Shown piece by piece: positions 885 to 64,000 of a stretch of DNA of 64,000 nucleotides; within the stretch, counting starts at the first letter, position 1, and each line of letters opens with the position of its first letter. The position numbers and the translations under genes are program-made. Origin of the DNA: Sipunculus nudus (lineage: Eukaryota > Annelida > Sipuncula > Golfingiida > Sipunculidae); the NCBI GenBank assembly GCA_026874595.1, contig CM049315.1, positions 6,568,664 to 6,632,663 of the forward strand. The letters run 5' to 3'. The notes under the pieces are model-generated. The model was not told where the DNA came from, did no database searches, and worked only from the letters and a program-made list of their open reading frames with translations.

Positions 885-3665
885 TCTCTTAGTGTATACC
901 TGTAACACATTTAATGTATATAGTTTTAACATCTGATCCTCTTGGTGTATACCGAAAAAAGATTTACTGTATGTAGTTTAACTATCTTACACTCTTAGTG
1001 TATAACTGTAACACATTTAATGTATATAGTTTTAACATCTGATCCTCTTGGTGTATACCGAATAACAGATTTACTGTATGCAGTTTAACTATCTTACCCT
1101 CTTAGTGTATACCTGTAATACATTTAATGTATATAGTTTTAACATCTGATCCTCTTGGTGTATACCGAAAAAAGATTTACTGTATGTAGTTTAACTATCT
1201 TACACTCTTAGTGTATAACTGTAACACATTTAATGTATATAGTTTTAACATCTGATCCTCTTGGTGTATACCGAAAACAGATTTACTGTATGTAGTTAAA
1301 CTATCTTACCCTCTTAGTGTATACCCGTAACACATTTAATGTATATAGTTTTAACATCTGATCCTCTTGGTGTATACCGAATAACCGATTTACTGTATGT
1401 AGTTTAACTATCTTACCCTCTTAGTGTATACCCGCAACACATTTAATGTATATAGTTTTAACATCTGATCCTCTTGGTGTATACCGAAAACAGATTTACT
1501 CTATGTAGTTTAACCACCTTACCCTCTTAGTGTATACCCGTAACATATTTAATTTATATAGTTTTAACATCTGATCCTCTTGGTGTATACCGAATAACCG
1601 ATTTACTGTATGTAGTTTAACTATCTTACCCTCTTAGTGTATACCCGTAACACATTTAATGTATATAGTTTTAACATCTGATCCTCTTGGTGTATACCGA
1701 ATAACCGATTTACTGTATGTAGTTTAACCATGTTACCCTCTTAGTGTATACCCGTAACACATTTAATGTATATAGTTTTAACATCTGATCTTCTTGGTGT
1801 ATACCGAATAACCGATTTACTGTATGTAGTTTAACTATCTTACCCTCTTAGTGTATACCCGTAACACATTTAATGTATATAGTTTTAACATCTGATCCTC
1901 TTGGTGTATACCGAATAACAGATTTACTGTATGTAGTTTAACTATCTTACCCTCTTAGTGTATAACTGTAACACATTTAATGTATATAGTTTTAACATCT
2001 GATCCTCTTGGTGTATACCGAATAACAGATTTACTGTATGTAGTTTAACTATCTTACCCTCTTAGTGTATAACTGTAACACATTTAATGTATATAGTTTT
2101 AACATCTGATCCTCTTGGTGTATACCGAATAACAGATTTACTGTATGTAGTTTAACTATCTTACACTCTTAGTGTATACCTGTAACACATTTAATGTAGA
2201 TAGTTTTAACATTTGATCCTCTTGGTATATACCGAATAACAGATTTACTGTATGTAGTTTCACTATCTTACCCTCTTAGTGTATAACTGTAACACATTTA
2301 ATGTATATAGTTTTAACATTTGATCCTCTTGGTGTATACCGAATAACAGATTTACTGTATGTAGTTTAACTATCTTACACTCTTAGTGTATAACTGTAAC
2401 ACATTTAATGTATATAGTTTTAACATTTGATCCTCTTGGTGTATACCGAATAACAGATTTACTGTATGTAGTTTAACTATCTTACCCTCTTAGTGTATAA
2501 CTGTAACACATTTAATGTATATAGTTTTAACATTTGATCCTCTTGGTGTATACCGAATAACAGATTTACTGTATGTAGTTTAACTATCTTACACTCTTAG
2601 TGTATAACTGTAACACATTTAATGTATATAGTTTTAACATTTGATCCTCTTGGTGTATACCGAATAACAGAATTACTGTATGTAGTTTAACTATCTTACA
2701 CTCTTAGTGTATCCCCGTAACACATTAAATGTATATAGTTTTAACATCTGATCCTCTTGGTGTATACCGAATAACAGATTTACTGTATGTAGTTTAACCA
2801 TCTTACCCTCTTAGTGTATACCCGTAACACATTTAATGTATATAGTTTTAACATCTGATCCTCTTGGTGTATACCGAATAACAGATTTACTGTATGTAGT
2901 TTAACTATCTTACCCTCTTAGTGTATAACTGTAACACATTTAATGTATATAGTTATAACATCTGATCCTCTTGGTGTATACCGAAAACAGATTTACTGTA
3001 TGTAGTTTAACCATCTTACCCTCTTAGTGTATACCCGTAAACATTTAATGTATATAGTTTTAACATTTGATCCTCTTGGTGTATACCGAATAACAGATAT
3101 ACTGTATCTAGTTTAACTATCTTACCCTCTTAGTGTATAACTGTAACACATTTAATGTATATAGTTTTAACATCTGATCCTCTTGGTGTATACCGAAAAC
3201 AGATTTACTGTATGTAGTTTAACTATCATACCCTCTTAGTGTATAACTGTAACACATTTAATGTATATAGTTTTAACATCTGATCCTCTTGGTGTATACC
3301 GAAAACAGATTTACTGTATGTAGTTTAACCATCTTACCCTCTTAGTGTATACCCGTAAACATTTAATGTATATTGTTTTAACATCTGATCCTCTTGATGT
3401 ATACCAACAACACATTTACTACATGTAGTTTTACATCTGTAGCCCTATTGATGTATACCCACAACACATTTACTACATGTTGTTATAACATCTAGCCCTC
3501 TAGATGTATACCCACAACACATTTACTACATGTAGTTTTAACATCTAGCCCTCTAGATGTATACCCACAACACATTTACTACATGTAGTTTTAACATCTA
3601 GCCCTCTAGATGTATACCCACAACACATTTACTACATGTAGTTTTAACATCTGACTATCTTGCTG
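885..3665 (+). repeat. Tandem satellite: 53-bp monomer, about 107-bp dimeric higher-order unit
   Basis: The CTCTTAGTGTAT start recurs at 886, 992 and 1099, a period of 106-107 bp. Each unit is a dimer of two related monomers of about 53 bp. One starts CTCTTAGTGTAT and carries AACACATTTAATGTATATAG. The other starts CTCTTGGTGTATACCGAA and carries AGATTTACTGTATGTAG. From about 3395 to 3640 the dimer gives way to a plain 53-bp monomer with CTCTAGATGTATACCC starts and ACTACATGTAGT centres. Array size is about 2.8 kb, or about 52 monomers. Variation is mostly single substitutions plus A/AT indels after ACCGAA. No coding potential is seen. Confidence 0.92.
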
Positions 3666-10629: not shown

Positions 10630-11429
10630 CACAAAGTCTACGTCAGGGAGGTTTATGATTAACATACAGAGTCTACGTCATAGTATTTTATGACTAACAT
10701 GCAGAGTCTACGTCAGGCAGGTTTATGATTAACAAACAGAGTCTACGTCAGGCAGGTTTATGATTAACGTACAGAGTCTACGTCAGGCAGGTTTATGGTT
10801 AACATACAGAGTCTTCGTCATGGTTATTTATGATTAACATACAGATTCTACGTCATGGTTGTTTATGATTAACATACAGATTCTACGTCATGGCGGTTTA
10901 TGATTAACATACAGATTCTACGTCATAGTGGTTTATGATTAACATACAGATTCTACGTCAGGGAGGTTTATGATTAACATACAGAGTCTACGTCATAGTA
11001 TTTTATGACTAACATGCAGAGTCTACGTCAGGCAGGTTTATTGATTAACAAACAGAGTCTACGTCAGGCAGGTTTATGATTAACGTACAGAGTTTACGTC
11101 AGGCAGGTTTATGATTAACATACAGAGTCTACGTCATGGTTATTTATGATTAACATACAGATTCTACGTCATGGTTGTTTATGATTAACATACAGATTCT
11201 ACGTCATGGCGGTTTATGATTAACATACAGATTCTACGTCATGGTGGTTTATGATTAACATACAGATTCTACGTCATGGTTGTTTATGATTAACATACAG
11301 ATTCTACGTCATGGTTGTTTATGATTAACATACAGATTCTACGTCATGGTGGTTTATGATTAACATACAGCGTCTACGTCATGGTGGTTTATGTTTAACA
11401 TACAGATTCTACGTCATGGTTGTTTATGA

Positions 11430-14400
11430 TTAACATACAGATTCTACGTCATGGTTGTTTATGATTAACATACAGATTCTACGTCATGGTGGTTTATGAT
11501 TAACATACAGCGTCTACGTCATGGTGGTTTATGTTTAACATACAGATTCTACGTCATGATGGTTTATGATTATCATACAGGTTCTACGTCATGGTGGTTT
11601 ATGATTAACATACAGAGTCTACGTCAGGCAGGTTTGTGATTAACATACAGAGTCTACGTCATGGTGGTTTATGATAAACATACAGATTCTACGTCATGGT
11701 TGTTTATGATTAACATACAGATTCTACGTCATGGTTGTTTATGATTAACATACAGCGTCTACGTCATGGTGGTTTATGTTTAACATACAGAGTCTACGTC
11801 AGGCAGGTTTATGATTAACATACAGAGTCTACGTCATGGTTATTTATGATTAACATACAGATTCTACGTCATGGTTGTTTTTATGATTAACATACATATT
11901 CTACGTCATGGCGGTTTATGATTAACATACAGATTCTACGTCATAGTGGTTTATGATTAACATACAGATTCTACGTCAGGGAGGTTTATGATTAACATAC
12001 AGAGTCTACGTCATAGTATTTTATGACTAACATACAGAGTCTACGTCAGGCAGGTTTATGATTAACAAACAGAGTCTACGTCAGGCAGGTTTATGATTAA
12101 CGTACAGAGTCTACGTCAGGCAGGCTTATGATTAACATACAGAGTCTACGTCATGGTTATTTATGATTAACATACAGATTCTACGTCATGGTTGTTTATG
12201 ATTAACATACAGATTCTACGTCATGGCGGTTTATGATTAACATACAGATTCTACGTCATGGTGGTTTATGATTAACATACAGATTCTACGTCATGGTTGT
12301 TTATGATTAACATACAGATTCTACGTCATGGTTGTTTATGATTAACATACAGATTCTACGTCATGGTTGTTTATGATTAACATACAGATTCTACGTCATG
12401 GTTGTTTATGATTAACATACAGCGTCTACGTCATGGTGGTTTATGATTAACATACAGAGTCTACGTCATGGTGGTTTATGATTAACATACAGATTCTACG
12501 TCATGGTTATTTATGATTAACATACAGATTCTACGTCATGGTTGTTTATGATTAACATACAGATTCTACGTCATGGTTGTTTATGATTAACATACAGCGT
12601 CTACGTCATGGTGGTTTATGTTTAACATACAGAGTCTACGTCAGGCAGGTTTATGATTAACATATAGAGTCTACGTCATGGTTATTTATGATTAACATAC
12701 AGATTCTACGTCATGGTTGTTTTTATGATTAACATACAGATTCTACGTCATGGCGCTTTATGATTAACATACAGATTCTACGTCATAGTGGTTTATGATT
12801 AACATACAGATTCTACGTCAGGGAGGTTTATGATTAACATACAGAGTCTACGTCATAGTATTTTATGACTAACATACAGAGTCTACGTCAGGCAGGTTTT
12901 TGATTAACAAACAGAGTCTACGTCAGGCAGGTTTATGATTAACGTACAGAGTCTACGTCAGGCAGGTTTATGATTAACATACAGAGTCTACGTCATGGTT
13001 ATTTATGATTAACATACAGATTCTACGTCATGGTTGTTTATGATTAACATACAGATTCTACGTCATGGCGGTTTATGATTAACATACAGATTCTACGTCA
13101 TGGTGGTTTATGATTAACATACAGATTCTACGTCATGGTTGTTTATGATTAACATACAGATTCTACGTCATGGTTGTTTATGATTAACATACAGATTCTA
13201 CGTCATGGTTGTTTATGATTAACATACAGCGTCTACGTCATGGTGGTTTATGTTTAACATACAGATTCTACGTCATGGTTGTTTATGATTAACATACAGA
13301 TTCTACGTCATGGTTGTTTATGATTAACATACAGATTCTACGTCATGGTTGTTTATGATTAACATACAGATTCTACGTCATGGTTGTTTATGATTAACAT
13401 ACAGATTCTACGTCATGGTGGTTTATGATTAACATACAGCGTCTACGTCATGGTGGTTTATGTTTAACATACAGATTCTACGTCATGATGGTTTATGATT
13501 ATCATACAGGTTCTACGTCATGGTGGTTTATGATTAACATACAGAGTCTACGTCATAGTATTTTATGACTAACATACAGAGTCTACGTCAGGCAGGTTTA
13601 TGATTAACATACAGATTCTACGTCATGGTGGTTTATGATTAACATACAGAGTCTACGTCAGGCAGGTTTGTGATTAACAGACAGAGTCTACGTCATGGTG
13701 GTTTATGATTAACATACAGAGTCTACGTCAGGCAGGTTTATGATTAACATACAGAGTCTACGTCATGGTTATTTATGATTAACATACAGATTCTACGTCA
13801 TGGTTGTTTATGATTAACATACAGATTCTACGTCATGGCGGTTTATGATTAACATACAGATTCTACGTCATAGTGGTTTATGATTAACATACAGATTCTA
13901 CGTCAGGGAGGTTTATGATTAACATACAGAGTCTACGTCATAGTATTTTATGACTAACATGCAGAGTCTACGTCAGGCAGGTTTATGATTAACGTACAGA
14001 GTCTACGTCAGGCAGGTTTATGATTAACATACAGATTCTACGTCATGGTTGTTTATGATTAACATACAGATTCTACGTCATGGTTGTTTATGATTAACAT
14101 ACAGATTCTACGTCATGGCGGTTTATGATTAACATACAGATTCTACGTCATGGTGGTTTATGATTAACATACAGATTCTACGTCATGGTTGTTTATGATT
14201 AACATACAGATTCTACGTCATGGTTGTTTATGATTAACATACAGATTCTACGTCATGGTTGTTTATGATTAACATACAGCGTCTACGTCATGGTGGTTTA
14301 TGTTTAACATACAGATTCTACGTCATGGTTGTTTATGATTAACATACAGATTCTACGTCATGGTTGTTTATGATTAACATACAGATTCTACGTCATGGTT

Positions 14401-14584
14401 GTTTATGATTAACATACAGATTCTACGTCATGGTTGTTTATGATTAACATACAGATTCTACGTCATGGTGGTTTATGATTAACATACAGCGTCTACGTCA
14501 TGGTTGTTTATGTTTAACATACAGATTCTACGTCAGGCAGGTTTATGATTATCATACAGGTTCTACGTCATGGTGGTTTATGAT
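11430..14584 (+). repeat. Higher-order block, copy 1 (about 3,154 bp)
   Basis: Rare variants in this block recur exactly 3,154 bp later. The CATACATATT variant is at 11891 and 15045, and ATGATAAACA is at 11671 and 14825. The period equals 90 monomers of 35 bp plus two TT insertions. Edges are approximate because flanking monomers are alike. Confidence 0.8.
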
Positions 14585-17500
14585 TAACATACAGATTCTA
14601 CGTCATGGTTGTTTATGATTAACATACAGATTCTACGTCATGGTGGTTTATGATTAACATACAGCGTCTACGTCATGGTGGTTTATGTTTAACATACAGA
14701 TTCTACGTCATGATGGTTTATGATTATCATACAGGTTCTACGTCATGGTGGTTTATGATTAACATACAGAGTCTACGTCAGGCAGGTTTGTGATTAACAT
14801 ACAGAGTCTACGTCATGGTGGTTTATGATAAACATACAGATTCTACGTCATGGTTGTTTATGATTAACATACAGATTCTACGTCATGGTTGTTTATGATT
14901 AACATACAGCGTCTACGTCATGGTGGTTTATGTTTAACATACAGAGTCTACGTCAGGCAGGTTTATGATTAACATACAGAGTCTACGTCATGGTTATTTA
15001 TGATTAACATACAGATTCTACGTCATGGTTGTTTTTATGATTAACATACATATTCTACGTCATGGCGGTTTATGATTAACATACAGATTCTACGTCATAG
15101 TGGTTTATGATTAACATACAGATTCTACGTCAGGGAGGTTTATGATTAACATACAGAGTCTACGTCATAGTATTTTATGACTAACATACAGAGTCTACGT
15201 CAGGCAGGTTTATGATTAACAAACAGAGTCTACGTCAGGCAGGTTTATGATTAACGTACAGAGTCTACGTCAGGCAGGCTTATGATTAACATACAGAGTC
15301 TACGTCATGGTTATTTATGATTAACATACAGATTCTACGTCATGGTTGTTTATGATTAACATACAGATTCTACGTCATGGCGGTTTATGATTAACATACA
15401 GATTCTACGTCATGGTGGTTTATGATTAACATACAGATTCTACGTCATGGTTGTTTATGATTAACATACAGATTCTACGTCATGGTTGTTTATGATTAAC
15501 ATACAGATTCTACGTCATGGTTGTTTATGATTAACATACAGATTCTACGTCATGGTTGTTTATGATTAACATACAGCGTCTACGTCATGGTGGTTTATGA
15601 TTAACATACAGAGTCTACGTCATGGTGGTTTATGATTAACATACAGATTCTACGTCATGGTTATTTATGATTAACATACAGATTCTACGTCATGGTTGTT
15701 TATGATTAACATACAGATTCTACGTCATGGTTGTTTATGATTAACATACAGCGTCTACGTCATGGTGGTTTATGTTTAACATACAGAGTCTACGTCAGGC
15801 AGGTTTATGATTAACATATAGAGTCTACGTCATGGTTATTTATGATTAACATACAGATTCTACGTCATGGTTGTTTTTATGATTAACATACAGATTCTAC
15901 GTCATGGCGCTTTATGATTAACATACAGATTCTACGTCATAGTGGTTTATGATTAACATACAGATTCTACGTCAGGGAGGTTTATGATTAACATACAGAG
16001 TCTACGTCATAGTATTTTATGACTAACATACAGAGTCTACGTCAGGCAGGTTTTTGATTAACAAACAGAGTCTACGTCAGGCAGGTTTATGATTAACGTA
16101 CAGAGTCTACGTCAGGCAGGTTTATGATTAACATACAGAGTCTACGTCATGGTTATTTATGATTAACATACAGATTCTACGTCATGGTTGTTTATGATTA
16201 ACATACAGATTCTACGTCATGGCGGTTTATGATTAACATACAGATTCTACGTCATGGTGGTTTATGATTAACATACAGATTCTACGTCATGGTTGTTTAT
16301 GATTAACATACAGATTCTACGTCATGGTTGTTTATGATTAACATACAGATTCTACGTCATGGTTGTTTATGATTAACATACAGCGTCTACGTCATGGTGG
16401 TTTATGTTTAACATACAGATTCTACGTCATGGTTGTTTATGATTAACATACAGATTCTACGTCATGGTTGTTTATGATTAACATACAGATTCTACGTCAT
16501 GGTTGTTTATGATTAACATACAGATTCTACGTCATGGTTGTTTATGATTAACATACAGATTCTACGTCATGGTGGTTTATGATTAACATACAGCGTCTAC
16601 GTCATGGTGGTTTATGTTTAACATACAGATTCTACGTCATGATGGTTTATGATTATCATACAGGTTCTACGTCATGGTGGTTTATGATTAACATACAGAG
16701 TCTACGTCATAGTATTTTATGACTAACATACAGAGTCTACGTCAGGCAGGTTTATGATTAACATACAGATTCTACGTCATGGTGGTTTATGATTAACATA
16801 CAGAGTCTACGTCAGGCAGGTTTGTGATTAACAGACAGAGTCTACGTCATGGTGGTTTATGATTAACATACAGAGTCTACGTCAGGCAGGTTTATGATTA
16901 ACATACAGAGTCTACGTCATGGTTATTTATGATTAACATACAGATTCTACGTCATGGTTGTTTATGATTAACATACAGATTCTACGTCATGGCGGTTTAT
17001 GATTAACATACAGATTCTACGTCATAGTGGTTTATGATTAACATACAGATTCTACGTCAGGGAGGTTTATGATTAACATACAGAGTCTACGTCATAGTAT
17101 TTTATGACTAACATGCAGAGTCTACGTCAGGCAGGTTTATGATTAACGTACAGAGTCTACGTCAGGCAGGTTTATGATTAACATACAGATTCTACGTCAT
17201 GGTTGTTTATGATTAACATACAGATTCTACGTCATGGTTGTTTATGATTAACATACAGATTCTACGTCATGGCGGTTTATGATTAACATACAGATTCTAC
17301 GTCATGGTGGTTTATGATTAACATACAGATTCTACGTCATGGTTGTTTATGATTAACATACAGATTCTACGTCATGGTTGTTTATGATTAACATACAGAT
17401 TCTACGTCATGGTTGTTTATGATTAACATACAGCGTCTACGTCATGGTGGTTTATGTTTAACATACAGATTCTACGTCATGGTTGTTTATGATTAACATA

Positions 17501-17738
17501 CAGATTCTACGTCATGGTTGTTTATGATTAACATACAGATTCTACGTCATGGTTGTTTATGATTAACATACAGATTCTACGTCATGGTTGTTTATGATTA
17601 ACATACAGATTCTACGTCATGGTGGTTTATGATTAACATACAGCGTCTACGTCATGGTTGTTTATGTTTAACATACAGATTCTACGTCAGGCAGGTTTAT
17701 GATTATCATACAGGTTCTACGTCATGGTGGTTTATGAT
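14585..17738 (+). repeat. Higher-order block, copy 2 (about 3,154 bp)
   Basis: This is the second tandem copy of the preceding block and carries the same rare variants in the same order. Near-identity over 3.1 kb indicates recent duplication, or an assembly artefact that should be excluded. Confidence 0.8.
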
Positions 17739-17939
17739 TAACATACAGAGTCTACGTCAGGCAGGTTTGTGATTAACATACAGAGTCTACGTCATGGTGG
17801 TTTATGATTAACATACAGATTCTACGTCATGGTGGTTTATGATTAACATACAGAGTCTACGTCAGGCAGGTTTGTGATTAACAGACAGAGTCTACGTCAT
17901 GGTGGTTTATGATTAGTTTTCGAGTTCAGTAATTAAGAT

Positions 17940-20913: not shown

Positions 20914-21374
20914 TGTTACAGGTGCCCTTTTATTGTGTGACACGGGCGTAACTCGTCTTGTAGCGCCCGCGTCTGGCCGCGTATTGCATTCTTAGCTTGG
21001 TCCGTACTGGTTGAACTCTCGTTGTTATGCTACCTTGGGGCTTTCTCGCCTGGCCGAGATCACGTGTGAACCCTGGTATGTGGAGCCACAGCGATGTTCT
21101 TCTAGATGATTCCTGTAACGCGTGTTTACTGTGTATTATGTAAAATCCTTTAGACTGTTCGAGAAGTGGAAAATTCTCGGCTTGGGGCAAGAAGTTATAA
21201 ATAGGGGGCTGTGTTTTACAGAGAGAGAGAGAGGAGAGAAGATTCCAGCAGACACAGACGTGTTTATGTCAGTTTGTGGGACCTGTCCGATAATCCAGTA
21301 ATTTCAGGGATTCTGCTATTACTAACTCCATACAATTTAGTGCTGCCTGTCTCAAGTTTACTTTCTGGATTGTT
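20914..21374 (+). mobile_element. 5' LTR, truncated
   Basis: It starts TGTTACAGG and matches the first about 475 bp of the 3' LTR with scattered substitutions. It contains a TATAAATA box at 21196-21203 followed by a GA-rich tract. At 21374 it breaks straight into pol coding sequence, so the rest of R, U5, the primer-binding site, gag and protease are deleted. The ORF starting at 21211 fuses LTR sequence to pol and is not a natural start. Confidence 0.8.
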
Positions 21375-22905
21375 ACACGTGTTTTCAGACAGGCACACTT
21401 CAGTTCCGCTTCACAGTATCCATTTAAAGTCAGGCAATGATGTTGCAGGTGACAAAGTACAGCCCGTACCAATAGTGACAGAAAAGCCGTCACTTGATCA
21501 GGAGACTTACCCTGAAAGTCAGGAAATTCCTAGTTTGTATCCTTCATGTGCTGTAAATAGATCTATGGCCAAGATAAACACACATGAGGATAATGGTCCA
21601 GATAATAACACTCTGGGAGTCACTAGTGACTCGTCTAATGACTCGCCCGTACAGGATGCAGCATTCTCAATTTCAGAACTTATTGTGGAACAGCATAAGG
21701 ACCCTGATATTTCATGTTTGTTTCCCGGGGCAGTTTCTAAAGATGAACTGTCACAGGACCCAGTTTGTTTCTATGTTAAAAATGGAGTGCTTATGCGTAA
21801 ATGGCGACCACCTGATGTATGCGCTGATGAAGAGTGGGCCCACAAACATCAAATAGTAATGCCCAAAAGCTTTCGCAATGAAATTCTAAGCATGGCACAT
21901 GAGGCTCCTTTGTCGGCCATTTAGGTATATAAAAAATATCAGAAAGTTAGTACACACTTCTATTGGCCTTACCTAAGGAAAGATGTTGTACAATATTGTA
22001 AATCATGCCATAAATGCCAGATGGTAGGCAAGCCCTATCAGAATCCTCCTAAGGCCCCACTTAGGCCTATTCCTGCGTTCGAGGAACCATTCAGTAGGAT
22101 TATTGTTGACTGTGTTGGACCACTGCCATAAACAAATTCTGGACATGAATACTTGCCGACAATTATGTGCGCATCTACCAGGTTCCCTGAGGCAATACCA
22201 TTGCGCAAAATTAATGCCAAAAGTGTTATCAAAGCTCTGACAAAGGTTTTACAACTTTTGGATTACCAAAATCCGTCCAGTCTGACCAAGGGTCTAATTT
22301 TATGTCTGGCTTATTCCAGCAAGTTATGCTTGAGCTAGGTATAAAACAGTACAGCTCTTCGCTATACCATCCTGAAAGCCAGGGCGCCCTCGAGCGTTTT
22401 CACCAGACATTAAAAAACATGATCAGGACTTATTGCTATGACGCACAGAAAGACTGGGATGGAGGAATCCACCTATTGCTGTTTGCTGTCAGAGAATCCT
22501 TTAAGAGTCCTTGGGTTTCAGTCCCTTTGCACTAGTTTTTGGACACTCCGTTCGAGGTCCATTGAAACTACTTAAATCAAAACTCTTGTGTAAAAATCCT
22601 GATTCTCTTAGTTTACTGCAGTTTAACTTTCGCACTAAACAACACAATGCTTGTGAGATTGCAAATTCAAATCCAAAATCTGCACAAAGTAAAATGAAAA
22701 CAAAGTATGACAAGCACAGTGTAAGTAAGACGTTTGAGCCTGGTGAAAAGGTCCTTGCCTTACTCCCCTTCCCTGGCAGACCTCTGCAAGCTAGGTAGTT
22801 GGTCCTTACATTGTTGACAAAAAAGTCAATGATTTAAAATACATACTGTTGACACCAGATAGACGTAAGAAGAAACAACTGTGCCATGTTAACATGTTGA
22901 AACTA
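21375..22905 (+). pseudogene. Integrase part of pol, frameshifted
   Basis: The order is a linker region, then an H2C2 zinc finger whose His pair lies near 21896-21920 and whose CKSC follows at about 22000. Next come the core with Asp in a VDCVGPLP context (about 22107), a second Asp in SDQGSNF in another frame (about 22280), and Glu in GALERFHQ (about 22390). A GPY/F-type C-terminal module ends in HVNMLK (about 22885-22905). Breaks are a 1-nt deletion at about 21914, a stop after GPLP, a frame change before SDQG, another near 22510, and a stop and frame change near 22796. Comparison with the copy at 44797 supports the first deletion. The catalytic D,D,E positions persist, but no full protein can be made. 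Confidence 0.85.
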
Positions 22906-24361
22906 TATTATGACAGAAATAGCACATCAGATGTTGTACATAGTGTTGCTGCTGTAAATTGTGTAAACACTGACCCTGACCCAGTTAAAGTAGATACTGA
23001 TTGTAAGTGTGATGTAGACATTCAGTGTGGTACAGTACTATTAAAAAACTCAGAGCTGGATGCCAAACTGTCACACCTTACCGCACAACAACAACAAGAC
23101 CTCAAGAACCTGATGCGGAATTATGAGCATTTGTTTAGTGACATTCTAACGCGAACTAACATATTGTGACGTCGATGTTGGCGTGGCAAGCGCAGTCAAG
23201 CAACATCCTTATAGACTGAACCCAGAAAGGCAAAAGTATCTACAGGATGAGATTCAATATTTGCTGGACAATGATTTTATTGAAACTAGTAACAGTAACT
23301 GGAGTTCACTGTGAATTCTTGTGCCAAAACCTGATGGAAGTTACCGTATGTGCACAGATTATCGAAAACTGAACTTTGTCACCAAGACTGACACGTTCCC
23401 GATTCCGAGGATCGATGATTGTATTGATAGAGTCGGTAGCTCCAGATATGTTTCCAAGTTTGACTTGCTAGAAGGATTCTGGGAGGTTCCGCTGACAGAA
23501 CAAGCAAAAGAAGTGTCCGCATTTGTGTGCCGCAAGGACTGTACCAGTATAAAGTTATGCCGTTTGGCATAGCATAGCGACACCTGGGATTAACATCTGC
23601 AAATTCGTCGCGACCTCTTCGAAAGACTCAGTGAAGCACGTTTGACCATCAACTTAGTAAAATCTGAGTTTTGTCATGCACAAGTAACATTTTTTGGTCA
23701 TATTGTAGGGCAGGGTCAGGTACAACCTGTTGATGCTAGGATAAGTGCTATTTCTGCATTTCCTAGACCAGAGAACAATAAGCAAATAATGCGTTTTCTT
23801 GGTATGGTTGGATACTACAGGAAGTTTTGTCCAAATTTTTCTGCTGTAGCTGAACCTTTGACTTATTTGTTAAAGAAGAAACAAAAGTTTGTGTGGAATG
23901 TTCAGTGTGAAAATGCATTTCAGAATTTGAAAGCAATTCTGCAAAGTTCACCAGTTTTAGCAGCTACAGACTTTTCTGTACATTTTAAGTTAGCTGTAGA
24001 TGCTAGTGATACTGCTGCTGGTGCTGTGTTGTTACAAGAAGGCAATGATGGCATAGATCGTCCAATTTGTTATTTCTCAAGAAAGTTTAATGCAAACCAG
24101 AAAAACTACTCCATTATTGAAAAGGAATGTTTGGCTTCGATTTTGGCATTGCCACATTTTGAAATTCATGCTACTTCATCAGTCAGGCCTATCATTGTCT
24201 TCAGTGATCACAATCCCCTCATGTTCATGAACAAGCTGAAGTGTAAATATCAAAGATTGTTCAGATGGAGTTTGTTCTTACAAGATTACAACCTTGAAAT
24301 CAAACACAGTAAAGGGAAAGACAATGTACTTGCTGATTGTTTATCGAGATGTGTTATGTAA
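22906..24361 (+). pseudogene. Reverse transcriptase and RNase H part of pol, RT catalytic region deleted
   Basis: A spacer (about 22906-23160) leads into RT. VPKPDGSYRMCTDYRKLN (about 23320-23375) and KFDLLEGFWEVPL (about 23456-23495) are typical Ty3/gypsy RT motifs. After MPFG (about 23560) the reading jumps to DTWD (about 23580), removing the YxDD active site, roughly 30-40 codons. Stops also occur near 23167 and 23312. From 23642 a 239-codon open frame covers the RT connection and a complete RNase H: VDAS (about 23996), IEKE (about 24117), SDHN (about 24204) and NVLADCLSR (about 24325), with catalytic acidic residues kept. It ends at 24361, close to the 3' LTR. Confidence 0.88.
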
Positions 24362-24485
24362 TGTTGTAAACGAGATGTTTATGTAATGTTGTATATAAGA
24401 TGATTTTTAAGATGTTGTAAAAATTTAGTGATTGTGATCGCAAAAAAAAGTTTTACGCGAAAACTTTCTTTTTTTCTTACAGGAG
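24362..24485 (+). other. Retroelement 3' noncoding region before the LTR
   Basis: Imperfect copies of a 25-26-bp unit (GAGATG-TTTATGTAATGTTG) straddle and follow the stop. They are followed by AAAGTTTT-ACGCG-AAAACTTT, an inverted repeat at about 24447-24467. Poly-T and CTTACAGGAG then reach the LTR. The same layout appears in the second locus (about 43997-44135, minus strand), so it is a family feature. A purine-rich polypurine tract is not obvious beyond AGGAG. Confidence 0.6.
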
Positions 24486-24784
24486 TGTTACAGGTGCCCT
24501 TTTATTGTGTAACACGGGCGTAACTCGTCTTGTAGCGCCCACATCTGGCCGCGTATTGAATTCTTAGTTTGGTTCGTACTTGTTGAACTCTCGTTGTTAT
24601 GCTAGCTTGGGGCTTTCTCGCTTGGCCGAGATCACGTGTGGACCCTTGTATTTGGAGACACAGCGATGTTCTTCTAGATGATTTCGCGTGTTTACTGTTT
24701 ATTATATACGATCCTTTAGACTGTTCGAGAAGTGGAAAAATTCTCGGCTTGGGGCAAGAAGTTATAAATAGGGGGCTGTGTTTT

Positions 24785-24823
<39 letters not shown>

Positions 24824-25457
24824 GGTTCCAGTGGACACAGACGTGTTTATGTCAGTTTGTTGGACCTGTCCGATAATCCAGTAATTTCAGGGATTCTGCT
24901 ATTACTAACTCCATACAATTTAGTGCTGCCTGTCTCAAGTTTACTTTCTGGATTGTTACAAGAGCTTTACATTGGACTGTTATTCTCCGAGAAGATTTGT
25001 GTAGACTTTTCATCCTGCATATACATTTTACAGGATTTATCGTAGTGGCAGTAGTGGTATCCAGGTACTGTGCTCTTTGTTTATTTTACTGTGTGATTCT
25101 ATTGATTTGTTGTTGTACTGCTATGATACTGAGTAATTGTATTGATTTAGTGTATTGTAATTTTAAGGTTGTTTTAAGTTTGGTACTGTACACTTCATTT
25201 ATTATACTGTGTAATTGCATTGATTTACTGTTATACTGTTGCTATACTGTGTAATAGTATTGATTTAATGTATTTTAATGTTAGGGTTGTTTTAAGAATA
25301 AATTATAGTTATTTGTTAACAAAAAACACTAACTTATTTATTCATTCCCCTAGACATTTCACGCTGCCTTGTGTTACAGAATCTGATTTTTTTGTCTCCA
25401 TTACAAAATTTGTGTTCTTCACGCATACGTGATCTGTTTATATTAGGTTCTGTAAAA
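24486..25457 (+). mobile_element. 3' LTR, about 970 bp
   Basis: It starts TGTTACAGG and ends near TTAGGTTCTGTAA. The end is inferred from the minus-strand copy, which ends cleanly in CCGTAACA. It contains a TATA box at 24763-24770 and a (GA)n tract at about 24788. A poly-A signal AATAAA lies at 25297-25302, implying a long R region of about 500 bp if transcription starts just after the TATA box. ORFs in it (24599-25045 and 24997-25432) are not genes. Confidence 0.75.
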
Positions 25458-25484: not shown

Positions 25485-26385
25485 GTTAGAGTGTCTAGTG
25501 ATCATCAGGAATGACTAGGGAACCACAAGAGATGGAATGACTAGCGACCCGTAAGAGATGGAATGTCTAGAGATCACCAGGAATGACTAGTGAACCACAA
25601 GAGATGGAATGACTAGCGACCCGCAAGGGATTGAGTGACTAGCGAACCACAAGAGATGGAATGACTGGCGATGCACAAATGATGGAATAACTAGCGATCC
25701 ATAAGATATGGTAAGACTAGAAATCCACATGAGAACCACAAGAGATGGAATGACTAGTGATCTACAAGAGATGGAATGACTAGCGATCCATAGAGATGGA
25801 ATGACTGGCGATCAATAAGAGATGGCATGACTGGCGAACCACATGAGATGGAATGACTAGCGATCCATCAGAGATGGAATGACTAAACATCCACATGAGA
25901 TGGAATGACTAGTGGTCTAGAAGAAATTGCATGACTAGAGATTCATAAGAGATGGAATGACTAGTGATCTATTTGAGATGGAATGACTAGCGATCTATAT
26001 GAGATGTTATGACTAGCGATCCACATGAGATGGAATGTCCAGCGATCAATAAGAGATGGCATGACTGGCGATCAACATGAGATAGAATGACTAGCGATCA
26101 ACATGAGATGGAATGACTAGTGATCTAGAAGAGATGGAATGACTAGCGATCCATAAGAGATGGAATGACTAGCGATCCATATGAGATGGAATGACTAGCG
26201 ATCGTCAAGAGATGGAATGACTAGCGATCCACGAGAGATGGAATGACTAGGACACCACAAGAGATGGAATGACTAGTGATTTACAAGAAATGGAATGACT
26301 AGCGATCCACAAGAGATGGAATGACAAGTGATCCACAAGAGATGTAATGACTAGAAATCCAAAGGGGAAGGATGACTAGCTATCG
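25485..26385 (+). repeat. 26-bp minisatellite, about 34 copies
   Basis: Units of GATGGAATGACTAGCGATCC plus ACAAGA or ATAAGA repeat with many substitutions and occasional indels. The first units at about 25485-25680 are the most irregular. Decayed units also lie at 20829-20913, on the other side of the LTR element. Confidence 0.9.
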
Positions 26386-26704: not shown

Positions 26705-28705
26705 TCAGCCCCTGACTTGCTGTTTGCTTTTCCGTCTGCGCTCTTGTTTGCTGTCTTTCCTAGGGTTACCGTTTGCTTTGCCCTAATACTATTACTTCAA
26801 CCACTCGTAAGCCCAGAGCTTGCTGGCTTTTATAACCGTCTGTCGTAAGGCCCTAGCCTTCCATTTGCAAAGCCATCTTACGTCAGCTCCCGGCCTTCGG
26901 TTTTGCTTTGCCGTCTGTCGTCATGCCCTGGCCTTCCGTTAGCATAGCCATCTTCCATCAGCTCTTGGCTTTTTGTTTGCTTTGCCGTCTTACGACAGCT
27001 CCTTGCTTTCCGATTGATTTTTCTTCAGGCCCTGGCGTTCCGTTTGCTTTGCCATAAGTTGATAGCTCCTGGCCTTCTGTCAGCTTTGCCATATGTTGTC
27101 AGCTCCAGGCCTTCTGTCTCCTTAGCCGTCTGTTGTCAGCTCCTGGCCTTCTGTTGCTTTGCCGTCTGTCGTCAGCTCCTGGCCTTTTGTCTGTTTTGCC
27201 GTCTGTCGTCAGCTCCTGGCCTTCTGTGTGCTTTGCCGTCTGTCGCCAGCTCCTGGCCTTCTGTCTGATTTGCCGTCTGTCGTCAGCTCCTGGCCTTCTG
27301 TGTGCTTTGCCGTCTGTCGTCAGCTCCTGGCCTTCTGTCTGCTTAGTCGTCTGGCGTCAGCTCCTGGCCTTCTGTCTGCTTTGCCGTCTGTCGTCAGCTC
27401 CTGGCCTTCTGTCTGCTTAGCCGTCTCTTTTCAGCTCCTGGGCTTCTGTCTGCTTTGCCGTCTGTCTTCAGCTCCTGGCCATCTGTGTGCTTTGCCGTCT
27501 GGCCAGCTCCTGGCCTTCTGTCTGCTTAGCCGTCTTTCGTCAGCTCCTGGCCTTCTGTCTGCTTTGCCGTCTGTCGTCAGCTCCAGGCCTTCTGTGTGCT
27601 TTGCCGTCTGTCGTCAGCTCCTGGCCTTCTGTCTGCTTTGCCGTCTGTCGTCAGCTCCAGGCTTTCTGTTTTCTTTGCCGTCTGTCGTCAGCTCCTGGCC
27701 TTCTGTGTGCTTTGCCGTCTGTCGTCAGCTCCAGGCCTTCTGTCTGCTTTGCCGTCTGTCGTCAGCTCCTAGCCTTCTGTCTGCTTTGCCGTCTGTCGTC
27801 AGCTCCTGGCCTTCTGTCTGCTCTGCCGTCTGTCGTCAGCTCCTGGCCTTCTGTGTGTTTCGCCGTCTGTTGTCAGCTCCTGGCCTTCTGTCTGCTCTGC
27901 CGTCTGTCGTCAGCTCCTGGCCTTCTGTGTGCTTTGCCGTCTGTCCTCAGCTCCTGGCCTTCTGTGTGCTTTGCCGTCAGTCGTCAGCACCTGGCCTTCT
28001 GTCTTCTCTGCCGTTTGTCGTCAGCTCCTGGCCTTCTGTGTGTTTTGCCGTCTGTTGTCAGCTTCTGGCCTTATGTCTGCTTTGCCGTCTGTCGTCAGCT
28101 CCTGGCCTTCTGTGTGCTTTTCCGTCTGTCGTCAGCTACTGGCCTTCTGTGTGCTTTGCCGTCTGTCGTCAGCTTCTCGCCTTCTGTGTGTTTTGCCGTC
28201 TGTCGTCAGCTCCAGGCCTTCTGTGTGCTTTGCCTCTGTCGTCAGCTCCAGGCCTTCTGTGTGCTTTGCCGTCTGTCGTCAGCTCCAGGCCTTCTTTGTG
28301 TGTTTGGCTTTCCGTTTGATTCGTAATCAGATATCAGCTCCTGGCTTTCCGGGGTTTTTTTTGCATGTGACGTCTGCTCCTGGCTTTCCGTTTGATTTGG
28401 CGGGTGATGTCAGCTCCTTGCTTTACGTTTGATTTGTCGGGTGTCGTCAGCTCTCGGCTTTCCGTTTGATTTGTCGGATGTCGTCAGATCTCGGCTTTAC
28501 GTTTGATTTGCTGTCTCACGTCAACTCCTTGCCTTCCGTTTGAATTTGCGGGTGACGTAAGCTCCTGGCTTCCCACTTGATTTGTTGGGTGTCGTCTGCT
28601 CCTGGCTTTCCGTTTGATTTGTCGTGCGATGTCAGCCTCGGCTTTCCGATTGATTTCTTGTATGACGTCAACTCCTGGCTTTCCGTTTGCTTTTGCATGT
28701 GACGT
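26705..28705 (+). repeat. 37-bp minisatellite, about 54 copies, three open reading frames
   Basis: The unit CTTTGCCGTCTGTCGTCAGC plus TCCTGGCCTTCTGTSTG repeats at 37-bp spacing (27194 to 27231, for example). Both edges hold diverged units: CGTTTGCTTTGCC forms on the left, and CCGTTTGATTTGTCGG forms from about 28300 on the right. Because 37 is not a multiple of 3 and the unit has no forward stop, every frame reads the same 37-residue repeat. This gives 386-, 279- and 167-codon ORFs. They are unlikely to be proteins: frame is not preserved, single-base indels are tolerated, and no flanking exon or signal is seen. Confidence 0.93.
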
Positions 28706-43292: not shown

Positions 43293-43996
43293 TGTTACGG
43301 AACCTAATAACAACAGATCACGTAATTGTGACCAGCACAAATTTTGTTACGGAGATAAAAAAATCAGACTCTGTAACACTAGGCAGCGTAAAATGTCTAG
43401 GGGTATGAATAAAGAGGTCAGTGTTTTTTTTTTGTTAACAAATAATTATAATTTGATCTTAGAACATTCCTAGATTACAATACACTAAATCAATACAATG
43501 ACACAGTATAACAATAAAAAATGTGCAGTACCACAGCGTCCGGATCCTAGGCTTTGATTCTGGATACCACCACTGTCACAGCTCAACAAGTTCTTTAAAA
43601 CCAATAATCCACGTAAATAGTAATAATCCAAAGGCAAAACTGGAGACAGTCCCTATTAAATCTGTATAAAGTCTAAAACTGACAAGAAGGTAACACACTC
43701 AGTGCTCGCTGGTCTTTTCCTTTCTGCCGGCTCTAAACACAGCCCCTAATTTATAGCTTCTGATTCGAAAATTCTATAAATGAAAAATTCCAAAAACAAT
43801 ACAAACGCACATGAACAGAACTGAAACGTCTAGAACAAAAAAGAACGCTGTGGTTCTACACTTTAGACCCCACACGCGAGCCAGCGCCCAACAAGCGAGG
43901 TTCCCATAGCATCGAACTATGCCTGCGCTACACGAATCAGAATGTCAACAGACACCTGTAACTCTCCTGCGCACAATAAAACAGACACCTGTAACA
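43293..43996 (-). mobile_element. LTR of the Gmr1-like family, minus strand, complete
   Basis: On the minus strand it starts TGTTACAGG (43996) and ends CCGTAACA (43293), giving clean inverted LTR termini of about 704 bp. TATAAATTAGGGGCTGTG (about 43745-43762) matches the TATA region of the LTR at 24763. The U3 part differs strongly from the 24486 LTR, while R/U5 words such as GGTGGTATCCAG are shared, so this is a distinct subfamily. A short duplication (ACAGACACCTGTAAC twice, 43948-43996) sits at its start. Confidence 0.8.
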
Positions 43997-44795
43997 CTCC
44001 ACCTCCTGTAAGAAAAAAAAGAAAGTTTTGCAATCACAGTCCCTAAATTTTTACAATATTTCGAAAAACATCTTCTTTGCAACATTTCATAAACATCTCC
44101 TTTACAACATTTCATAAACATCTCGATAAGCAATCAGCAAGTACATTGCCTTCCCTTTTATGTGTCTAATTTCAAGATTATAATCTTGTAAAAACAAACT
44201 CCATCTCAACAATCTTTGATTTTTACACTTCAACTTGTTCATGAACGCGAGGGGATTGTGATCACTGAAGACAATGATAGGCTTGACTGATGAAGTAACA
44301 AATACCTCAAATGTTGCAATGCCAAAAACAAAGCCAAACATTCTTTTTTAATTGTGGAGTAGTTTTCTGGTTTGCATTAAACTTTCTTGAAAAATAACAA
44401 ATTGGATGATATATGCCATCACTGACTTCTTGCAAACAACACAGCACCAGCAGCAGTATCAAAAGCATCTACAGCTAACTTAAAAGGTACAGAAGAGTCT
44501 GGAGCTGCTAAAACTGGTGAACTATGCAGAATTGCTTTCAAATTCTGAAATGTATTTTCGCACTGAACATTCCATGCAAACTTTTGTTTCTTCTTTAACA
44601 ATTTAGTCAGAGGTTCAGCTACAGCAGAAATATTTGGACAGAGTTCAGTTTTCGATAATCTGTGCACAAACGGTAACTTCCATCAGGTTTTGGCACAAGA
44701 ATGCATGGTGAACTCCAGTTACTGTTACTAGGTTCAATAAAATCATTGTCCAGCAAATATTGAACCTCATCTTGTAGATATTTTGCTTTTCTTTA
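43997..44795 (-). pseudogene. RT/RNase H fragment of a Gmr1-like element, minus strand
   Basis: Reading leftward: an RT start at about 44795-44660 (NDFIE, then VPKPDGSYRLCTDYRKLN in broken frame). An internal deletion then jumps to the RT connection (ISAVAEPLTKLLKKKQKF, about 44630-44575). RNase H follows, with VDAFD, SDHNPLAFMNK (about 44245) and LEIRHIKGK (about 44160), broken by frameshifts. The palm with YxDD is deleted. A 25-bp unit (AACATTTCATAAACATCTC) repeats about three times next to the 3' end, as in the 24362 region. The fragment runs into the LTR at 43996. Confidence 0.82.
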
Positions 44796-44796
44796 G

Positions 44797-44979
44797 TGGC
44801 ACTTGTGGCTCCTTTGTCTGGCCATTTAGATATATATAAAAATTATCCGAAAGTTAGTACACACTTCTATTGGCCTAATCTCAGGACTGACGTTGTACAA
44901 TACTGTAAATCATGCCACACATGCAAGATGGTAGGCAAGCTCGATCAGAATCCTCCTAAAGCCCCACCAGAACTTCACT
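44797..44979 (+). pseudogene. Integrase zinc-finger fragment, plus strand, head to head with the RT fragment
   Basis: The frame contains LSGHLDIYKNYPK, then HFYWPNLRTDVVQYCKSCHTC. This is the HHCC region of a Ty3/gypsy integrase and is close to that at about 21895-22015, with the frame intact. It begins within a few bases of where the minus-strand RT fragment ends. The integrase core is missing and sequence passes directly into LTR near 44980. Confidence 0.82.
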
Positions 44980-45408
44980 TTTGGATTACAACAGATTGTT
45001 TTCGGGGTTTCATTGGACTATTATTCTGTGAGAAGATTTACGTGAACTGTTCATTTGGATTATATGTTTTAAAGGACTTGTTGAGCTGTGACAGTGGTGG
45101 TATCCAGAAAAGCCTAGGACCCGGACACTCTGGTACTGTACACTTCATTTATTATACTGTGTAATTGCATTGATTTACTGTTATACTGTTGCTATACTGT
45201 GTAATAGTATTGATTTAATGTATTTTAATGTTAGGGTTGTTTTAAGAATAAATTATAATTATTTGTTAACAAAAAACACTGACCTCTTTATTCATTCCCC
45301 TAGACATTTCACGCTGTCTAGTTTTACAGAATCTGATTTTTATTTATTTCCGTAATATAATTCATGCTCAGCACGACTACGTGATCTGTTGATATTAGGT
45401 TCTTAACA
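44980..45408 (+). mobile_element. 3' part of a Gmr1-like LTR, plus strand
   Basis: From TTTTGGATTACAACAG it matches the second half of the LTR at 24950-25457, including GGTGGTATCCAG, CATTTATTATACTGTGTAAT, the poly-A signal region GAATAAATTATA (about 45247) and ACTACGTGATCTGTTGATAT. It ends TTCTTAACA at 45408 against a CA repeat. The U3 half with the TATA box is absent. The ORFs across it are not genes. Confidence 0.8.
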
Positions 45409-63803: not shown

Positions 63804-64000
63804 GGTCCAGTCTGAGTCCGAGTCAAGGTGCGGTCCTGTCTGAATCGAGTCCAGGCCCGGTCCAGTCTGAGTCTGAGTCAAGACCCGGTTCTGTCTGAAT
63901 CCCAGCCCAGGCGTGGTCCAGTCTGTGTCAGAGTCCAGACCCAGTCTAAATCTAGGTCAAGGCGCAGTCCAGACTGAGTCCAAGTCCAGGCGCGGGCCAG

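Follow-up and report, generated by a model that had tools for sequence, protein, structure and literature searches.

By the textbook rule, gypsy elements carry the integrase (INT) last, and an INT-first order is normally that of Ty1/copia elements. At positions 20914-25457 (plus strand) of the DNA analysed here, a stretch of 64,000 nucleotides referred to as the window, lies a degenerate LTR retrotransposon of Ty3/gypsy type in which INT precedes reverse transcriptase (RT). The question is whether this order is a genuine property of one element and its family or a local accident and, if genuine, to which gypsy group the family belongs.

Pfam matches give the domain order as truncated 5' LTR, protease (PR) remnant, INT, RT, RNase H and 3' LTR. 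Together with the match to Ty3 RT (see below), this order bears out the claim of an initial annotation that INT lies before an RT/RNase H of gypsy type. The parts of the window copy are as follows:

20914-21376, plus strand: 5' LTR, first ~463 bp only, 3' half deleted (blastn to the 3' LTR, 91% including gaps)
21377-21921, plus strand: PR C-terminal remnant and pre-integrase linker (tblastn to the L041 frame, residues 50 onward)
21925-22128, plus strand: INT H2C2 zinc-binding domain and start of the catalytic core (Integrase_H2C2 PF17921, 8.6e-11)
22215-22532, plus strand: INT catalytic core, literal D-35-E (rve PF00665, 2.9e-5; at least 150 relatives in the genome)
22505-22795, plus strand: INT region from the core to the GPY-type C-terminus (collinear in relatives)
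22795-23166, plus strand: single open frame with the INT C-terminal domain (VGPYIV) and pre-RT linker (Integrase_p58_C PF22938, 1.3e-7; relatives with the same junction)
23168-23569, plus strand: RT, N-terminal part (RVT_1 PF00078, 3.7e-11 at 23315-23569; tblastn to the L009 frame)
23594-24358, plus strand: RT C-terminal end and RNase H (PF17917, 4.6e-30; PF17919, 3.4e-29; at least 149 relatives)
24485-25457, plus strand: 3' LTR, 973 bp, TGTTACA...GTAAAA (right end from the homology limit; relatives end GTAACA)

The D-35-E and GPY modules of INT can be read directly from the window copy. PR was assigned by motif alone, the protease region having no Pfam match; the L041 frame used as the PR query begins RDTGSG...LLGSDVAG. 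The open frame at 22795-23166 spans 124 codons, with Integrase_p58_C at its start. The initial annotation had this frame joining the INT end to the RT start; it does join the INT C-terminus to the pre-RT linker, but ends about 150 bp short of the first RT motif in the window copy. The stop codon that had been noted after RNase H is present (24359-24361), at a distance of 123 rather than 125 bp from the 3' LTR. Homology to many relatives breaks off at the right end of this LTR, confirming the boundary. The 3' LTR also contains an internal 118-bp duplication (25064-25296), and LTR length varies within the family because L024 has extra copies of the duplicated segment.

The window copy is badly decayed, with several frameshifts and stops. 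The 5' LTR retains 463 of ~973 bp, its 3' half being lost together with the primer binding site (PBS) region, gag and most of PR, and after 23569 RT lacks the segment that in relatives includes the YIDD active site. With gag, most of PR, half of the 5' LTR and the active-site part of RT gone, the copy cannot move on its own; as read from its sequence, it is an inactive, internally deleted element. No PBS was located, and no target-site duplication is recognisable around the window copy (flanks GAGGT and AAGTG). The two LTRs differ by a K2P distance of 0.052 over 457 sites. The insertion would be about 2 million years old at 1.3e-8 per site per year, a rate borrowed from an annelid (PMC8220671) that may not fit the host, and about 13 million years old at 2e-9, an assumed slower rate that may not fit it either. 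A deletion junction common to the window copy and L038, as in a mobilised deletion derivative, was considered and dropped, because the two junctions differ.

Several repeats accompany the element. Tandem arrays lie directly 3' of it, at 25508-26384 (26-bp units) and 26881-28295 (37-bp units), and a 386-codon open frame in the 37-bp array is probably a mere repeat artefact. Satellite arrays occupy 886-3652 (107-bp unit, 26 copies) and 10637-17915 (35-bp unit, about 208 copies), and an array with a 28/56-bp unit runs from 49803 to the window end at 64000. Another copy from this element's family, itself scrambled, lies at 43295-45406, with RT/RNase H fragments (44825-44115) and an LTR tail (43533-43295) on the minus strand and an INT H2C2 fragment (44796-44966) and an LTR tail (45008-45406) on the plus strand.

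Evidence that the order is genuine comes from the rest of the genome (1.43 Gb in 153 contigs were searched). The family has at least 149 RT/RNase H relatives, at 76-88% protein identity, and at least 150 INT relatives. INT lies directly upstream of RT in every fetched copy long enough to include the two, and the fetched loci, where the stretch is long enough, show the block order pre-INT, H2C2, INT core, INT C-terminus, pre-RT, RT, RNase H. More than 20 independent loci, spread over many chromosomes, repeat this block order, which rules out chance. At two loci (L010:562-1560 and L021:358-1491) Integrase_p58_C is followed by RVT_1 within an unbroken frame, and in L041 (1674-2855, minus strand) one frame runs from the protease motif into INT H2C2 with no RT between.

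The same order emerged when family matches were listed genome-wide and partners within 8 kb were paired. The initial annotation had proposed a check for relatives with the order RT-RNase H-INT, and its claim withstood that check: INT was upstream of RT in 20 of the 22 pairs among the matches listed. SCAN-type gag was upstream of INT in 27/27 and upstream of RT in 23/23 of the listed pairs, and none of the listed INT-RT, gag-INT or gag-RT pairs had its members on opposite strands. Spacings were tight, near 1.5-1.9 kb (INT-RT), 2.1 kb (gag-INT) and 3.5-4.1 kb (gag-RT). Both INT-RT exceptions come from contig C15, where members of the family form a tandem array, and they arise because the nearest RT there belongs to the adjacent array unit. 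The integrase-first order of the family is thus confirmed as genuine rather than a local accident. The array itself, at ~45.89-45.91 and 46.03-46.04 Mb (L015, L026), consists of Gmr1-like elements in which the 3' half of the LTR is different and gag begins soon after the LTR.

Divergence among copies is similar in the INT part (6.3%) and the RNase H part (5.3%). Because the family is star-like, its INT and RT trees are only weakly congruent (Mantel r 0.31, p 0.04, or r 0.26, p 0.08 when the window copy is left out). Stops or frameshifts interrupt most copies, and the complete layout was therefore pieced together from several overlapping copies rather than from one intact copy. The best INT-core matches in the assembly (L001-L005) lie on the small contigs C106, C110, C118, C128 and C135; those of L001, L002 and L005 resemble bacterial IS3 transposases, which suggests that bacterial contigs are present in the assembly.

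Gypsy elements of the ordinary kind, also present in this genome, served as controls and were compared with the family by position, by pairing entries of the rve and RVT_1 lists. In four rve/RVT_1 pairs (near C3:93.71 Mb, C14:30.55 Mb, C6:29.37 Mb and C2:47.87 Mb) RT lies ~1.6-1.8 kb upstream of INT in 4/4, and the C3 and C14 pairs are each contained in a single frame, of 1444 and 1365 amino acids, respectively. Standard Ty3/gypsy elements have the same RT, RNase H and INT families as the present elements but, unlike them, place RT and RNase H before INT; in the Ty3 structure (PDB 7q5b), RT occupies residues 584-1009 and INT begins at 1080.

The pieced-together layout of the family is gag (SCAN, CCHC), PR, INT, RT, RNase H, polypurine tract, LTR. 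Its RT is closest in the PDB to Ty3 RT (1.1e-86), its RT/RNase H is of Ty3/gypsy type (PF17917 and PF17919 at 3.4e-29 or better), and its INT is likewise of gypsy type, with H2C2 (PF17921), DD35E (PF00665) and a GPY C-terminus (PF22938). The gag of two relatives (L040 and L026) matches SCAN (PF02023) at 1.8e-9 and 9.8e-10, above the Pfam cut-off, and 150 SCAN matches were found genome-wide among the matches listed; a CCHC knuckle is present in the gag of family members. No outside relatives of the family were found in viral and prokaryote sequence collections.

The Gmr1 clade is said to go back to the Gmr1 element of Gadus morhua, described by Goodwin and Poulter in 2002. It is the gypsy group with INT upstream of RT (PMC6238403, PMC8220671, PMC3587641), and it shares with the present family both this pol order and a SCAN-type capsid; it is also like the family in lacking env, none having been seen in the latter. 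In vertebrate zinc-finger proteins, the SCAN domain is a homologue of the Gmr1-like gypsy capsid and derives from the gag of such elements (PMC4592553). Pol order and capsid type are two independent features that point to Gmr1, and we call the family Gmr1-like on these two features of its sequence rather than on a tree with Gmr1 sequences. The likeness to Gmr1 that the initial annotation had drawn from the INT-first order is strengthened by the SCAN-type capsid of the relatives. The family apparently has gag and pol in one frame, as do the pufferfish Gmr elements, whose LTRs are 337-518 bp long versus 973 bp in the window copy (PMC11117352, table 2). A TIHG protease flap has been reported for Gmr1 (PMC2577118, with the data not shown there), a trait that does not define the clade; reading the protease region of five relatives in every frame did not turn up the literal motif.

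How else might an INT-first gypsy element come about? INT from one element and RT from another that lies next to it or is nested with it could mimic a single element, and the wealth of repeats and rearrangements in the window, with the scrambled family copy at 43295-45406, speaks for such an arrangement. However, more than 20 loci share the INT-RT junction, at a constant spacing, and a single frame crosses it in L010 and L021. This explanation was therefore rejected as highly improbable, and the earlier view that one element is present rather than two is upheld. It is harder still to believe that a Ty1/copia element has been mistaken for gypsy. The order PR-INT-RT-RNase H is common to copia and the family and would by itself fit, but the RT/RNase H match gypsy-type models (Ty3 RT at 1e-86) and INT has gypsy-type H2C2 and GPY/p58 C-terminal modules; the copia domain families differ from these, and a copia identity was rejected on that ground.

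An INT-first order that arose independently of Gmr1, by a separate rearrangement within a standard gypsy clade, deserves somewhat more weight but is also unlikely. It would fit with the placement of the family without a Gmr1 reference tree, with the absence of the TIHG flap from the five relatives, and with a mollusc survey that names 21 gypsy clades, many of them mollusc-specific, with Gmr1 not among them (PMC6238403). Against it, the SCAN-type capsid of the relatives is the one reported for Gmr1-like elements (PMC4592553), so that gag type and pol order agree on one lineage. If the order had indeed arisen independently, gypsy pol could be reordered more than once and still be functional enough to produce hundreds of copies. 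The preferred reading, held with high confidence, is that the window copy is an inactive, deleted member of a high-copy integrase-first (Gmr1-like) Ty3/gypsy family.

Nothing in the observations requires a new mechanistic step. From established LTR-retrotransposon biology, the element RNA would be expected to yield a Gag-Pol polyprotein. The gag tail, PR and INT are joined in a single frame in some copies, and INT and RT in others; such frames across domain junctions make one Gag-Pol polyprotein the likeliest product. PR would cut this polyprotein, the capsid would package the RNA, RT/RNase H would make cDNA using the PBS and polypurine tract, and the H2C2/DD35E/GPY integrase would insert the cDNA. 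The sole departure from an ordinary gypsy element would be the position of INT within the polyprotein, which we propose is tolerable because PR cleavage separates the products. The polypurine tract, AGGAGGGGGAG, lies directly 5' of the 3' LTR in relatives. Upstream of it, most copies (L007, L014, L019, L025, L027 and L030) have a short inverted repeat (AAAGTTTTC...GAAAACTTT).

The possibility of a protostome member of the Gmr1 group, put forward in the initial annotation as the point of interest, is outdated as a novelty. Crustacean Gmr1-like elements, called the first in protostomes, were published in 2013 (GyLiva4, the fragmentary GyRex4 and GyRex5, and others; PMC3587641), and LGF3, a family of the annelid Lamellibrachia, followed in 2021 (PMC8220671). 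These protostome members of the Gmr1 clade are likened to the present family by description. Gmr1 is also listed as a clade that occurs in more than one phylum (PMC8556966). If the host is a mollusc, the family would be a modest addition that fills a gap, given that Gmr1 is missing from the clades named in the mollusc survey (PMC6238403). Three marker families searched for in the genome, mollusc haemocyanin (PF14830), big defensin (PF14862) and egg-laying hormone (PF02323), had no matches, but the controls had none either, and these searches therefore carry no weight for or against a mollusc host. Protostome occurrence is therefore not new: the group is already known from both major animal branches, and the present family is a new member of it.

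What the family contributes is a rare exception to the INT-last rule for gypsy elements, confirmed at more than 20 loci in one genome with ordinary controls beside it. In addition, the presence of a SCAN-type capsid in what may be a protostome would date the combination of SCAN-type gag and INT-first pol to before the protostome/deuterostome split, and such a date would bear on where the SCAN domain of vertebrates came from.
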